A DNA stretch of 36,689 bases from Flavobacteriales bacterium (lineage in GTDB: Bacteria; Bacteroidota; Bacteroidia; Flavobacteriales_D; Sanyastnellaceae): contig CANHPZ010000011.1 in NCBI GenBank assembly GCA_947462725.1, forward strand, positions 1 to 36,689. Reading direction: 5' to 3'. The translations under genes and the position numbers were made by a program. Of this stretch, positions 19,735-24,196 are shown one piece after another (position 1 is the stretch's first letter; each line of letters starts with the position of its first letter). The notes beneath the pieces are model-generated. The model was not told the DNA's origin, ran no database searches, and saw only the letters and a list, made by a program, of their open reading frames with translations.

Positions 19735-20295
19735 TCACAACAACGATTCTATCACTTTCGGAAACCATTCCATTTCGAGCGCACGCACCTTCATTTCTAT
19801 GGCATGCGCATCATCGTCGGAGGCAATAGACACCTTGTGCTGAGCGACAATCGCTCCTTCATCATACTGTTCATTCACATAGTGAATCGTAATGCCGGAT
19901 TCAGTTTCTCCCGCTGCAAAAACAGCATCGTGCACAAAATGCCCATACATGCCTTTGCCTCCATATTTGGGCAATAGCGAAGGATGAATATTGATGATAC
20001 GCTGCGGAAAATGCTGAACCATCGCGGCAGGAACTTTCCATAGAAAACCTGCCAGCACAATCAAATCCACTTTCAGAGCCTTCAGCTCATCAATAAAATC
20101 ATTACTTAATCTGAAATTTTCCTTGGTGATAAGTTGAGTTGGAATAGCATGTCGAGCCGCTATATCCAGCACACCTGCATCGCTGCGATTGGAGGCGATA
20201 AGCACCACTTCCATCTTGTCTGAACCTTTGAAATAGGAAAGGATATTGGCGGCATTACTTCCTGCGCCTGAGGCTAAGATGGCTACTCGCTTCAC
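19735..20295 (-). CDS. purN: Phosphoribosylglycinamide formyltransferase
   Basis: PurN transfers a formyl group from 10-formyltetrahydrofolate to GAR in purine biosynthesis. The family opening (V)KRVAILASGAGSNAANIL starts at a GTG at 20295, giving 186 aa, close to the usual length. An ATG at 20352 in the same frame would add 19 atypical residues and overlap the kinase gene by 35 bases, so I prefer the GTG. Catalytic residues are seen in INIHPSLLP (Asn and His) and in the DEGAIVAQ segment (Asp), with the folate-pocket VLAGFLWKVP strand between. The GTG lies 22 bases after the stop of the hybrid kinase gene on the same strand. Confidence 0.95.
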   Translation of the reverse strand: MKRVAILASGAGSNAANILSYFKGSDKMEVVLIASNRSDAGVLDIAARHAIPTQLITKENFRLSNDFIDELKALKVDLIVLAGFLWKVPAAMVQHFPQRIINIHPSLLPKYGGKGMYGHFVHDAVFAAGETESGITIHYVNEQYDEGAIVAQHKVSIASDDDAHAIEMKVRALEMEWFPKVIESLL

Positions 20296-20317: not shown

Positions 20318-22195
20318 TCAACCGACAAAGATGAACCCGTAGATTTTTTCATACAGCAGTTCAGGTTGAAATGGTTTGGATACGTAATCGTTCATACCGA
20401 TTTCCAAACTCCGCTCATGCTCGCCGTTGAGCGCGTTTGCAGAAAGGCCAATTACAGGAACACTCAACTTCATTTGATTGCGTATAATCATGGTGGCTTC
20501 AAATCCATCCATCAGCGGCATTTGCAAATCCATCAACACAAGATCATAGGTGCTTTGCTTTAATCGCTCAATCGCATCAATACCATCCTCACTGATTTCG
20601 GTATGCGCATTCCAAGATTTCAGCAAAGCCATAGCCAAGTATTGATTCACTTTATTATCCTCCACCAACAGGATGCGCGCGCCACGCAAATCCGGCTTAA
20701 ACTCCACCTCCTGCGTTGCCACTGCTTCAGCACGCTTCAATGGTATGGTAAAGTAGAATTTCGATCCACTGTTCTTCTCGCTGCGCAGCGCCAACTCTCC
20801 TCCCATCATCTCTACAATCTTCTTGGAGATAGAAAGTCCAAGTCCGGTGCCGCCATATTTCCGTGTGGTGCTCGAATCCTCTTGAGTGAATGCCTGGAAA
20901 ATCGCGGCTTGACGCTCCGCAGCAATGCCAATTCCAGTATCGGTTACTGTAAACCTAATCAGTTGCGACGCTTCATTTTCATCGGATAAATCAATGGCTA
21001 AATCAATGCTGCCTTGTGGTGTAAACTTGATGGCGTTGCTGATTAAGTTCGTGAGTACCTGATTTAACCGATGCACATCACCCGATAGCCTCTCCGCAAT
21101 TCCATCAGCAACTCGGCAAGAAAATTCCAATCCCCTATCGACTGCTTTCAGATTAAGCGCCTTGGTGAGCTCGCCAAAATTCTCTTTCGGCGAAAAAGCT
21201 ATCTGTTCTAGTTCCACCTTTCCACTTTCGATGCGCGACACATCCAATAAATCATCGATGAGCACTAACAAGCCATTCGAAGAAAAGCGCATGTTTTTCA
21301 AATACTCGTGCTGCTGTTCCGTGAGCTCCGTATTCGAAAGCAACGACGACATGCCAACGATAGCATTAATCGGTGTTCGCAGTTCGTGACTCACGTTGGC
21401 CAAAATTGTTTTCCGCAATTCCAAACCAGCTTCGGCCGCCTTCTTGGCATCGCGCATTTCGCGTTCCAAATTTTTCTGCCGCGTAATATCAAACACAACA
21501 ATAACTCCACCTTCCACTGCACCCTTATCATCAAACAATGGGGCTGTTGTGCATAGTAGCCATACCTCCTTATTGCCCTTTGCAACCAAGGGCGCTTCAA
21601 ATACACTGTTACTTGATATAAACTCAAAGCTGCGGACAATATCCAATTCGTCGGCTAAAATTGGCGCCATTTGAAAATCGGCTGCCGTGAGGCCCACCAA
21701 CTCTTCCGATTGCTGATCAAATATCTCAGCGAATCGCTTCTCGACATGCGTGAGCTTACCACGCGCGTCGTAACGCGCCATGCCCAAATTCAAACTCTCA
21801 ATAATATCTGTCAGTCGCTGCTCCGACTGCGCCTTACGCGACTCGGCAACATGACGCTTGGCAACTTCTTCCTGAATTACATCCGCGAGTTGCAGCAGAT
21901 CCTCATTGGCCATAATCTGCTGGTCTGAAAACAACGACCGCGCAGCATACTTAAGCGACTCTAATACATTCGACTGCTGTAGCAAAAGATCATTCAATGC
22001 ATTCTTCTTGGACAACAACTCATCACTGCTCTCGCGCATGGCAGTTTCCATAAGCACCCGATCATTATCGAAATGATTATAGCTGTTGTTGATGGCTTGA
22101 AAAAGTTCCTCCATTTCACCGGGCATCTCAGGATAACCCGGAAAAAACTTCTTCAACTGCCTCTCTAATAATCGATGATAACCTTTGCCCGTCAT
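20318..22195 (-). CDS. Soluble hybrid histidine kinase (PAS-HisKA-HATPase-REC)
   Basis: This 625-aa protein has no membrane segment. Residues 1-125 are mostly helical with coiled-coil character. A PAS domain follows (about 126-240), then HisKA with phosphoacceptor His270 in ANVSHELRTPINAIVGM. The HATPase_c domain has N-box LTNLISNAIKF (Asn387), G1 DTGIGI and G2 GGTGLGLSISKK. A C-terminal receiver has the acidic pair in LLVEDNKVNQ, phosphoacceptor Asp556 in LMDLQMPLMDG and the conserved Lys in YVSKPFQP. No DNA-binding or enzymatic output domain follows, so the phosphate must be relayed to another protein. Its start ATG overlaps the stop of the FIST gene by four bases, which strongly suggests that the FIST protein is its sensory partner. 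Confidence 0.95.
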   Translation of the reverse strand: MTGKGYHRLLERQLKKFFPGYPEMPGEMEELFQAINNSYNHFDNDRVLMETAMRESSDELLSKKNALNDLLLQQSNVLESLKYAARSLFSDQQIMANEDLLQLADVIQEEVAKRHVAESRKAQSEQRLTDIIESLNLGMARYDARGKLTHVEKRFAEIFDQQSEELVGLTAADFQMAPILADELDIVRSFEFISSNSVFEAPLVAKGNKEVWLLCTTAPLFDDKGAVEGGVIVVFDITRQKNLEREMRDAKKAAEAGLELRKTILANVSHELRTPINAIVGMSSLLSNTELTEQQHEYLKNMRFSSNGLLVLIDDLLDVSRIESGKVELEQIAFSPKENFGELTKALNLKAVDRGLEFSCRVADGIAERLSGDVHRLNQVLTNLISNAIKFTPQGSIDLAIDLSDENEASQLIRFTVTDTGIGIAAERQAAIFQAFTQEDSSTTRKYGGTGLGLSISKKIVEMMGGELALRSEKNSGSKFYFTIPLKRAEAVATQEVEFKPDLRGARILLVEDNKVNQYLAMALLKSWNAHTEISEDGIDAIERLKQSTYDLVLMDLQMPLMDGFEATMIIRNQMKLSVPVIGLSANALNGEHERSLEIGMNDYVSKPFQPELLYEKIYGFIFVG

Positions 22196-23319
22196 TCAAT
22201 CTCGTGATAAGTAGTTATCGTCATGGTCTGATTGTGCAATGAACATTGCGTGCTGCCCAGCTGAGGCGAAATTTCACCATTCGAATAAAACCCGGTATAG
22301 GCCGCACCGGCTCCAAAATATTGGCATACAGATTCAACTTCCTCTTCAATGCGCTGATCGAGTACAATCTTGCGCCCCACGCAACTCACCATAATGACGA
22401 GCTCCGGTGATTGATCTTGCGATTGCTCTGCGGCTCGCGCAGCACCATCTATCAAACGATCAAAATTGGCCATCATAAATTGCACCTGTGCCCCCTCGGG
22501 AATATTACCGGCAAATCGCAAGGTACCCGCTTCTTCGTCAATACTCAAAATGGTTCGAACCAATTGACTTTGGTTATCATCCCCCAAAATACAGAGCGGA
22601 AACAACAAGGCCGAACCCGGCAGCTCGCTTGCGCGCGGCCCCAAGTAGCGCTTGTAAATCGACAAGGCATTCTCACCATCCAACTCATACAGCACATTAT
22701 CGGTGGCCTTAGTCACTTGTCGAACCGGACCGAATAAATCCCAACCTCCGTGAGAACCATGTGTGATGCGCAGTTTGTCTCCATAAAAACCAATTGCAAC
22801 AATGCGATTGGATTGTGGATTCTTGTTGGCTCCAACCAGAGTCTTTGTAAATCTTCCCGCATCAGCCGCCAATCCGCCGGTCACAACTACATGATCAGGC
22901 AATTGGCTATTTATTCCGCGAACCAAATCATCGCCATTCACTGAAATTCCATCCGACAACACCATGATGTGACACAGGTCTGCAGCATATAGATCTTCTG
23001 TTATGCTCAAACCGCAATCATAGCTGGAGGCACAATCATTCACATCACTATCTATTACACGGAGACGCGTTTTATCAAAACGACAGGCACTCACACTCAC
23101 CGTGTGATCATGCACTTCTTCGCCATGTATTTCACCTGCAGTGCTGGCCATTACAACCTCAGCATCAGGATACATTTTGCGAATTTCACCATACACATTA
23201 TCGTTGGCCAAGGCATCAACACCTCCAAAAGCCAATACCAGATTAGGTTTGAAATCGGCTATCGATAGCGGATCTAACCAACCCTTACCTTCACTCCATA
23301 AATGTTGTTTTACTTGCAT
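22192..23319 (-). CDS. FIST-domain sensory protein
   Basis: The 375-aa product has the two-part FIST architecture. FIST_N covers about residues 25-215 (PNLVLAFGG, then ASTAGEIHG, then VVTGGLAADAGRF with FYGDKLRITHGSHGGW). FIST_C covers about 225-355 (YKRYLGPRASELPGSALLFPLCI, RFAGNIPEGAQVQFM, and the end VCQYFGAGAAYTGFYSNGEISP). FIST domains were described as ligand-sensing modules linked to signal-transduction genes, with small molecules such as amino acids proposed as ligands. There is no signal peptide or membrane segment, so it senses a cytoplasmic cue. It is translationally coupled (ATGA, 22192-22195) to the hybrid kinase and is the first gene of this minus-strand run, divergent from gldA across 157 bases. 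Confidence 0.93.
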   Translation of the reverse strand: MQVKQHLWSEGKGWLDPLSIADFKPNLVLAFGGVDALANDNVYGEIRKMYPDAEVVMASTAGEIHGEEVHDHTVSVSACRFDKTRLRVIDSDVNDCASSYDCGLSITEDLYAADLCHIMVLSDGISVNGDDLVRGINSQLPDHVVVTGGLAADAGRFTKTLVGANKNPQSNRIVAIGFYGDKLRITHGSHGGWDLFGPVRQVTKATDNVLYELDGENALSIYKRYLGPRASELPGSALLFPLCILGDDNQSQLVRTILSIDEEAGTLRFAGNIPEGAQVQFMMANFDRLIDGAARAAEQSQDQSPELVIMVSCVGRKIVLDQRIEEEVESVCQYFGAGAAYTGFYSNGEISPQLGSTQCSLHNQTMTITTYHEIE

Positions 23320-23476: not shown

Positions 23477-24196
23477 ATGTCTATTTCAGTTAAAGGTGTA
23501 TCAAAAGTGTATGGCTCACAACGCGCTCTGAATGAGGTTTCATTCGAAATTGGTCAGGGAAAAATCGTTGGATTCCTGGGCCCCAACGGCGCAGGAAAGA
23601 GCACTATGATGAAAATTATCACATGCTACATTCCACCAACATCAGGAAAAGTAGATGTATGCGGCTATGATGTTATGGAGCAAAGCACCGATGCCAAGCG
23701 ATGCATTGGCTACTTGCCCGAACACAACCCACTCTACACGGATATGTATGTGCGCGAATACCTCTCCTTTGTGGGCGGCATGTATCGCATTCCAAATCTT
23801 AAGCAGCGTGTTGAAGAGATGATAGAAACCGTGGGCCTGCAAGTGGAGGCGCACAAGAAAATTGAAACACTGTCGAAGGGATATCGTCAACGCGTAGGAC
23901 TTGCGCAAGCCATGATTCACGATCCGCAGGTACTCATTCTTGATGAGCCAACCAGCGGACTCGACCCCAATCAACTGGCTGAGATACGCGAACTGATTGT
24001 TTCTATCGGCCGCAAAAAAACGGTGATGCTTTCAACGCATATCATGCAAGAAGTAGAAGCCATGTGCGATCACGCACTCATCATCGATCGCGGAAATATT
24101 GTGGCTGAAAACCTCGTGATGAGCGAACTCGCGAAAACCGATCGCAAACTCGAAGACATTTTCAAAGAGGTTACGCAAAAGGCTCAGGCCTTGTAA
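23477..24196 (+). CDS. gldA: GldA-like gliding motility ABC transporter ATPase (short form)
   Basis: This ABC ATPase closely matches GldA, which in Flavobacterium partners GldF and GldG in gliding motility. Walker A is GFLGPNGAGKSTMM (about 33-46), the Q-loop region is IGYLPEHNPLYTDMYV, the ABC signature is LSKGYRQRVGLAQAM, Walker B is VLILDEPTSGLDP, and the switch His is in MLSTHIMQEVEAMCD. The product is 239 aa. GldA proteins are, from memory, about 300 aa with a C-terminal extra domain before the final LEEIF-type helix. Here the chain passes from DRGNIVAENLVMSELAKTD straight into LEDIFKEVTQ, so that domain appears to be missing. gldF and gldG are not adjacent. The 3' end overlaps nadE by 13 bases in the convergent direction. 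Confidence 0.8.
   Translation: MSISVKGVSKVYGSQRALNEVSFEIGQGKIVGFLGPNGAGKSTMMKIITCYIPPTSGKVDVCGYDVMEQSTDAKRCIGYLPEHNPLYTDMYVREYLSFVGGMYRIPNLKQRVEEMIETVGLQVEAHKKIETLSKGYRQRVGLAQAMIHDPQVLILDEPTSGLDPNQLAEIRELIVSIGRKKTVMLSTHIMQEVEAMCDHALIIDRGNIVAENLVMSELAKTDRKLEDIFKEVTQKAQAL

Follow-up and report, generated by a model that had tools for sequence, protein, structure and literature searches.

Genes at the FIST-kinase locus

A 36,689-nucleotide stretch of a Flavobacteriales bacterium genome (GenBank assembly GCA_947462725.1, contig CANHPZ010000011.1), referred to below as the window, includes a gene for a FIST sensor protein followed by a gene for a soluble hybrid histidine kinase (Table 1). The two genes represent a real and widely conserved sensor-kinase pair, a variant form of NosP/NahK. 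The interest of the locus lies in a stretch of about 80 residues at the N-terminus of the kinase, hereafter the unit, which is undescribed and marks the partners of FIST proteins across output types. It does not lie in the gene overlap or the missing output gene, which an earlier interpretation made from the DNA alone (the sequence-only reading) had put forward.

Both domains of the FIST protein score well above the curated Pfam cut-offs (23.2 bits for FIST and 28.5 bits for FIST_C), and the Pfam domains of the kinase also exceed theirs. The kinase has the HisKA, HATPase_c and receiver domains of a hybrid histidine kinase, with the phospho-acceptors His270 and Asp556 at the respective positions. 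The highest mean hydropathy over 19 residues is only 1.07 for the FIST protein and 1.06 for the kinase; hence neither includes a membrane segment. In this, as in the four bases (ATGA) shared by the two open reading frames, in the receiver without a fused effector and in the identity of the next gene, purN, the sequence-only reading was correct. It had further described kinase residues 1-125 as helical and without a recognised input domain. AlphaFold2 models of the relative at locus L035 show a helical N-terminus extending to about residue 125, and no Pfam family exceeds its cut-off over residues 1-125; the PAS domain that follows is a possible input domain, which had been passed over.

Table 1. 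Features of the FIST-kinase locus and the gene behind it (positions in the window).
Feature	Position	Strand	Evidence
FIST sensor protein, 375 residues	22192..23319	-	Pfam PF08495 and PF10442
FIST N domain	about 22672-23244	-	Pfam PF08495, 150.4 bits
FIST_C domain	about 22264-22668	-	Pfam PF10442, 128.5 bits
Cys313, FIST pocket, aligned with FBXO22 Cys326	22381..22383	-	Residue conservation and FBXO22 alignment
Glu349, FIST pocket, aligned with FBXO22 Glu362	22273..22275	-	Residue conservation and FBXO22 alignment
His362, candidate metal or heme ligand	22234..22236	-	Conserved in all six NosP-like rows
ATGA overlap, FIST stop TGA and kinase start ATG	22192..22195	-	Open reading frames
Soluble hybrid histidine kinase, 625 residues	20318..22195	-	Pfam domains and hydropathy
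N-terminal unit, kinase residues 1-80, proposed FIST docking module	21956..22195	-	Alignment A2 (55 rows) and co-occurrence
PAS domain, residues about 126-241	21473..21820	-	Pfam PAS_9 33.4 bits, PAS_4 26.6 bits
HisKA with phospho-acceptor His270	21221..21415	-	Pfam, 67.6 bits
HATPase_c	20735..21082	-	Pfam, 105.2 bits
Receiver domain, phospho-acceptor Asp556, no effector behind	20342..20674	-	Pfam Response_reg, 83.9 bits
purN	19735..20295	-	Pfam Formyl_trans_N

Conservation of the gene pair

The relatives considered comprise 60 genomes, including that of the window, which is fragmented into 238 contigs. A Pfam search for FIST gave matches in 26 of them. FIST proteins that are 50-80% identical to that of the window, referred to as subtype A, occur in 20 genomes (two known from partial genes); the distant FIST proteins of the relatives are about 22-32% identical to it. 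Besides the window there are 19 subtype A loci, and at 16 of these a kinase gene lies directly behind the FIST gene on the same strand. Two others, in genomes G010 and G029 of one genus, have purN directly behind FIST, and one is cut by the end of a contig. The adjacency of FIST and kinase genes is thus beyond chance. The N-terminus is shared by all 16 kinases; PAS is missing in four.

A single scan of genome contigs revealed 583 relatives of the FIST protein, and the best 80 from named genomes were kept as the named loci. Eight of these (L066-L070, L072, L075 and L082) are from genomes already among the relatives, and the nearest of the 80 are from metagenome-assembled genomes with Flavobacteriales titles. 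The titles of the named loci cover Bacteroidota, Planctomycetota, Ignavibacteria, Armatimonadetes, Gemmatimonadota and Proteobacteria, single phylum labels being uncertain because most are metagenome-assembled genomes. A profile of the kinase N-termini identified the unit at 78 of the 80 loci, all but L075 and L138, and at 77 it lies directly downstream of FIST on the same strand. At L141 it forms a free frame of 110 residues (368-697) just upstream of FIST, which may be a dock in its own right or a disrupted gene.

Taking as start codon the one nearest to the expected first residue of the unit, the FIST and unit genes of the 77 loci range from a 23-base overlap to 95 bases apart. Only 22 of the 77 overlap, nine of them by exactly four bases, and the ATGA overlap was therefore discarded as a mark of the pair. 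Loss of the overlap in related genomes had been named in advance as evidence against a two-protein unit; the overlap is indeed not conserved, but the operon is.

The purN gene, whose likely start is a GTG at 20295, 22 bases past the kinase stop, is probably co-transcribed with the kinase gene, and no sign of a part in signalling was found for it. It is present in 14 of the 19 stretches fetched from the relatives and directly behind the kinase or FIST gene in 10, as would suit a sensor linked through purN to purine or one-carbon metabolism. Such a link is most improbable: one other gene intervenes before purN at L033, L036, L039 and L043, purN is not behind the kinase gene at L035 and L060, and the pair of FIST and unit is found in many settings outside the family. 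A shared promoter would fit the arrangement.

The N-terminal unit and its co-occurrence with FIST subtype A

In the 89 aligned rows of the unit Glu59 is invariant, and Leu10, Gln13, Tyr39 and Asp45 are nearly so. The AlphaFold2 models of L035 show a short helix and one long helix. No known family was recovered for the unit. At E up to 0.1, Pfam gave scattered weak matches in at most six of 55 rows (DUF7018, best E 0.0026) and NCBIfam in at most three of 55 (NosR family, best E 0.028); the best PDB matches were a designed protein by sequence (E 0.17) and one with an E of 6.8 by fold. A literature search, with most subscription journals outside its reach, found no description of the unit or of a Bacteroidota NosP.

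The model of the unit (A2) was searched through whole genomes irrespective of location; a limited number of candidates was scored per genome, and misses are possible. Since A2 was built from FIST neighbours, units that are far from these in sequence may also be missed. Among the 60 relatives, matches were found in 22 genomes at E 0.001 and in 20 at no less than 45 bits, and these 20 are exactly the 20 genomes with subtype A. At that level the unit is absent from all 40 relatives without subtype A, though most of them had scored candidates; the six relatives with distant FIST proteins only have none. Other weak matches (20-25 bits) include those in G023, which has an internal stop, and G056, both without subtype A. 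One genome (G017) carries both subtype A and the unit, and its congener G036 carries neither. In G010 and G029, where the kinase gene behind FIST is gone, a PAS-HisKA_2 kinase encoded on a different contig from FIST carries the unit, and an apparent single-domain response regulator follows it.

In 296 Bacteroidota genomes, with subtype taken as over 400 bits with model A5 and the unit as over 50 bits, 36 genomes have the subtype and 36 the unit. Both occur in 34 genomes, FIST only in two, the unit only in two and neither in 258. The 34 genomes with both span 14 families, and the two matches are always on the same strand and spaced -5 to 58 bases. The Fisher test gave 2.4e-16 for the 60 relatives and 8e-40 for the 296 Bacteroidota, the kinship of the genomes being ignored. 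Of ten genomes reached via the named loci, nine give a single unit match and G061 (the genome of L138) gives none. Hence a kinase of this type without a FIST gene, which had been proposed as contrary evidence, is rare (no case in the 40 subtype-free relatives and two among the 296).

A weakly unit-like N-terminus (23.5 bits) is also present in a HisKA_2 kinase on contig C14 of the window's genome (L175:4620-6248), a possible second FIST target. That kinase gene adjoins a receiver-type frame, and the frame upstream looks like REC-SpoIIE. Similar weak matches are found elsewhere in the genus, in four other genomes.

Output domains and phosphorelay partners

Pfam domains were assigned in 72 unit-bearing proteins, including that of the window and some cut by contig ends. 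HisKA was found in 59, HATPase_c in 60 and a receiver in 32; Hpt was found in 10, SpoIIE in six, GGDEF in two and EAL in one. Its fusion to SpoIIE, GGDEF and EAL as well speaks for a connector and not for a component of the kinase. The unit probably serves FIST docking independently of the output. Locus L056 (2593-4716) encodes FIST, FIST_C and SpoIIE in a single chain according to Pfam, and L057 (6168-8258), of the same genus, encodes a FIST-SpoIIE fusion by similarity to L056; the unit is absent from both. Most simply, the unit would replace a covalent link between FIST and its output. The wider proposal, an undescribed, output-independent FIST docking domain found on kinases, SpoIIE phosphatases and cyclic di-GMP enzymes of many phyla, with a FIST pocket equivalent to the Cys-Glu pocket of human FBXO22 (see below), has in our estimate an even chance of being correct. 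The unit would then point to the phosphatases and cyclases under FIST control, and as a partner mark it would make non-adjacent FIST partners findable by sequence, as in G010 and G029.

Given the receiver built into the window kinase, a histidine phosphotransfer (HPt) protein would be required downstream. Three Hpt matches were found in the window's genome, two in hybrid kinases and one in a free frame just below the cut-off; the free HPt lies on contig C1 at about 64985-65149. The genome also encodes 28 receivers, including that of the kinase itself, and no specific partner was found among them. A free HPt frame of 123-150 residues is present in all eight genomes of the genus (G000-G007), with 23.3-26.1 bits against a cut-off of 24.6. 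It was rejected as a FIST-specific partner, as some relatives that lack subtype A (e.g. G009, G012, G016, G021 and G022) have free Hpt frames too, and G014, which has subtype A, has none at E 0.001. The co-varying third partner that the sequence-only reading had suggested looking for was thus not found, response regulators not having been examined for co-variation. In seven of the 16 kinases of the relatives, a C-terminal extension includes an HPt-like His motif, as judged by eye; one further kinase, that of L044, is cut at this point. For the three of these seven kinases whose genomes were covered by the Pfam Hpt search, the match was over the cut-off in G018 and below it in G013, and there was none in G008.

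The lack of an output gene beside the kinase gene had been regarded as an oddity, which overstated it, because NahK of Pseudomonas aeruginosa uses HptB and VpsS of Vibrio cholerae uses LuxU, each encoded elsewhere.

At two Azospirillum plasmid loci (L063 and L064) the FIST gene is followed by that for a large hybrid kinase, which the unit profile matches weakly (33 bits), and then by that for a response regulator that is HD-GYP-like by eye; this arrangement represents a candidate complete FIST operon.

Family and pocket of the FIST protein

The FIST fold was confirmed by Foldseek with the model of L035 (FIST and unit), for which the top four matches are FBXO22 (best E 6.6e-12). Of the 95 subtype A rows, 94 keep Cys313, Glu349 and His362, as do all six NosP-like rows and all three type B rows, and Cys313 and Glu349 are invariant in a set of 19 rows. 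When a profile of diverse FIST proteins is compared with FBXO22, Cys313 and Glu349 fall on Cys326 and Glu362; at E 0.23 this alignment is weak and counts only together with the fold match. Cys326 and Glu362 form a reactive pocket of FBXO22 (PMC13316043), which is exploited by drug-like compounds. FBXO22, a human F-box protein, thus resembles the window protein in fold and in the aligned pair of residues, but it belongs to a eukaryotic ubiquitin ligase.

For the ligand, given as unknown in the sequence-only reading, the NosP literature provides a lead by analogy, with heme or nitric oxide (NO) as leading candidate. The window FIST is encoded beside a histidine kinase, as is typical of NosP, and the NosP model NF041558 of NCBIfam is matched by 46 of the 47 rows of subtype A (best E 1.2e-21). 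His362 is the only His kept in all six NosP-like rows and is also kept in the window. The layout is likewise that of NosP and NahK, a soluble FIST protein with a co-encoded soluble hybrid kinase and the output elsewhere. The pair might be simply the Bacteroidota form of NosP/NahK, sensing NO through bound heme and sharing both ligand and docking with it, which we regard as possible but doubtful. At 42.5 bits, where the cut-off is 450, the window FIST cannot be filed as NosP under NF041558. The cut-offs of the NosP and NahK models are strict, and that of NF041558 is reached by no protein of 143 Gammaproteobacterial genomes; six Gammaproteobacterial NosP-like proteins are also below it, albeit at 260-413 bits. 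The Cys residues at columns 58 and 271, present in all six NosP-like rows, are replaced by Ala and Gly in the window. The window kinase scores 128.2 bits on the NahK model NF041831 (cut-off 1500) and 172.6 bits on the NahK/ErcS C-terminal model NF041832 (cut-off 400), and general kinase models (e.g. BarA) score higher.

The kinases encoded beside NosP-like proteins at L166-L169 (one cut by a contig end) have N-termini that differ from the unit; three of the gene pairs overlap by 4, 1 and 4 bases, and one has a gap of 35. At the NosP-like loci L170-L172 there is no directly adjoining kinase gene. In hhalign, the N-termini of the kinases at L166-L169 match the unit collinearly over 72 columns (E 7e-4, probability 26%, with only four rows on one side), and the unit model gives them at most 10 bits. 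The sequence comparison is no more than suggestive of homology between the unit and NahK-type N-termini.

A second, distant FIST protein is encoded in the window's genome (G000, contig C67:1768-2343; L002 and L049). In the relatives at L050 and L053, a FIST gene of the C67 kind is closely followed by one for a PAS-rich histidine kinase of ~830 residues, the first ~220 of which match no family. A Legionella longbeachae plasmid (L062) encodes a FIST protein 40% identical to that of the window beside efflux genes and with no adjoining kinase gene.

Proposed docking and comparison with known systems

The data are best accommodated by a two-protein cytoplasmic sensor of NosP/NahK type, in which the FIST protein binds a ligand, docks on the unit and controls the kinase; we consider this assignment likely. 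The FIST protein would bind its small ligand in the pocket with Cys313, Glu349 and His362. Its dock in the kinase dimer would be the helical unit, at residues 1 to about 80. Docking would alter the long helix that leads through PAS into HisKA, and autophosphorylation of His270 would rise or fall. Phosphate would then pass to Asp556 of the built-in receiver, to an HPt made elsewhere and to a response regulator. The sign of regulation is not predictable, since the effects of NosP differ between species (PMC12570481).

That the kinase N-terminus serves as the FIST dock had been suggested by the sequence-only reading. The idea gains from a conserved unit that travels with the FIST subtype and is kept where PAS is missing; AlphaFold2 gave no sign of docking. 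The two frames of the window cannot be joined, and the chain modelled therefore included the L035 FIST protein, its stop, eight intergenic codons and the unit, together with 73 other rows, and was judged by the predicted local distance difference test (pLDDT) and predicted template modelling (pTM) scores. The joined chain has a pTM of 0.79 and a mean pLDDT of 90.7.

Several observations weigh against a dedicated FIST dock. In the models the pLDDT of the unit was not raised by joining FIST (78-94, compared with 79-98 alone), a result that neither supports docking nor is evidence against it. The FIST subtype occurs without the unit in G484 and G492 (one genus) and at L138. Conversely, G346 has the unit without the subtype, a distant FIST protein being 49 kb away, and so does G463, with a partial FIST-like frame 3.4 kb off on the opposite strand. 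In G359 an additional, unlinked copy of the unit accompanies the pair. Moreover, neighbouring genes may co-occur without physical contact of their products. The genes might be co-transcribed without contact of their products, with the unit as a helix for kinase dimerisation or signalling and with FIST acting via a small molecule or on another target. A short helix with a long one resembles dimer linkers, and the lack of gain upon joining would agree. Nevertheless, this is unlikely, as the unit is no general kinase linker (none of the 40 subtype-free relatives has it at 45 bits or more), is matched exactly once in each of nine named genomes, is also carried by phosphatases and cyclases, and persists with FIST when unlinked in G010 and G029.

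The proposed docking of FIST on the unit has parallels in described systems. NosP-type sensors have been studied in a few Proteobacteria, and no description of the contact between FIST and kinase was found in the literature searched. In P. aeruginosa NosP-NahK (PA1975-PA1976), NahK signals through HptB, which is encoded elsewhere (PMC11784011). This system and Legionella NosP-NahK-NarR resemble the window in having a soluble FIST protein beside a soluble kinase, but the window FIST is far under the NosP cut-off, the N-terminal sequence of its kinase differs, and a role of heme or NO is only a candidate. In V. cholerae VpsV-VpsS, the FIST gene is upstream of that for a cytoplasmic hybrid kinase feeding the shared HPt LuxU (PMC4398556), a likeness to the window in layout; no counterpart of LuxU/LuxO was identified in the window's genome. 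In Burkholderia pseudomallei, NosP binds NosK in a two-hybrid assay, changes its autophosphorylation and inhibits the kinase (PMC12570481). About 130 N-terminal residues of NosK are without a recognised domain (PMC12570481), as in the window kinase, but the NosP-NosK-NosR operon includes a response regulator, and NosK as described there has no PAS or receiver. A partner acting on an N-terminal or linker helix, as proposed for FIST, is found in RsbT-RsbU, where RsbT acts on RsbU via a coiled-coil linker in a manner proposed to be common to phosphatases, cyclases and kinases (PMC12143880); the partner fold differs.

Adjacent divergent gene

On the other side of the pair, 157 bases from the FIST start, the window carries a divergent gene (23477-24196, + strand) for the ATPase of an ATP-binding cassette (ABC) transporter, which we take to resemble gliding-motility ABC proteins.

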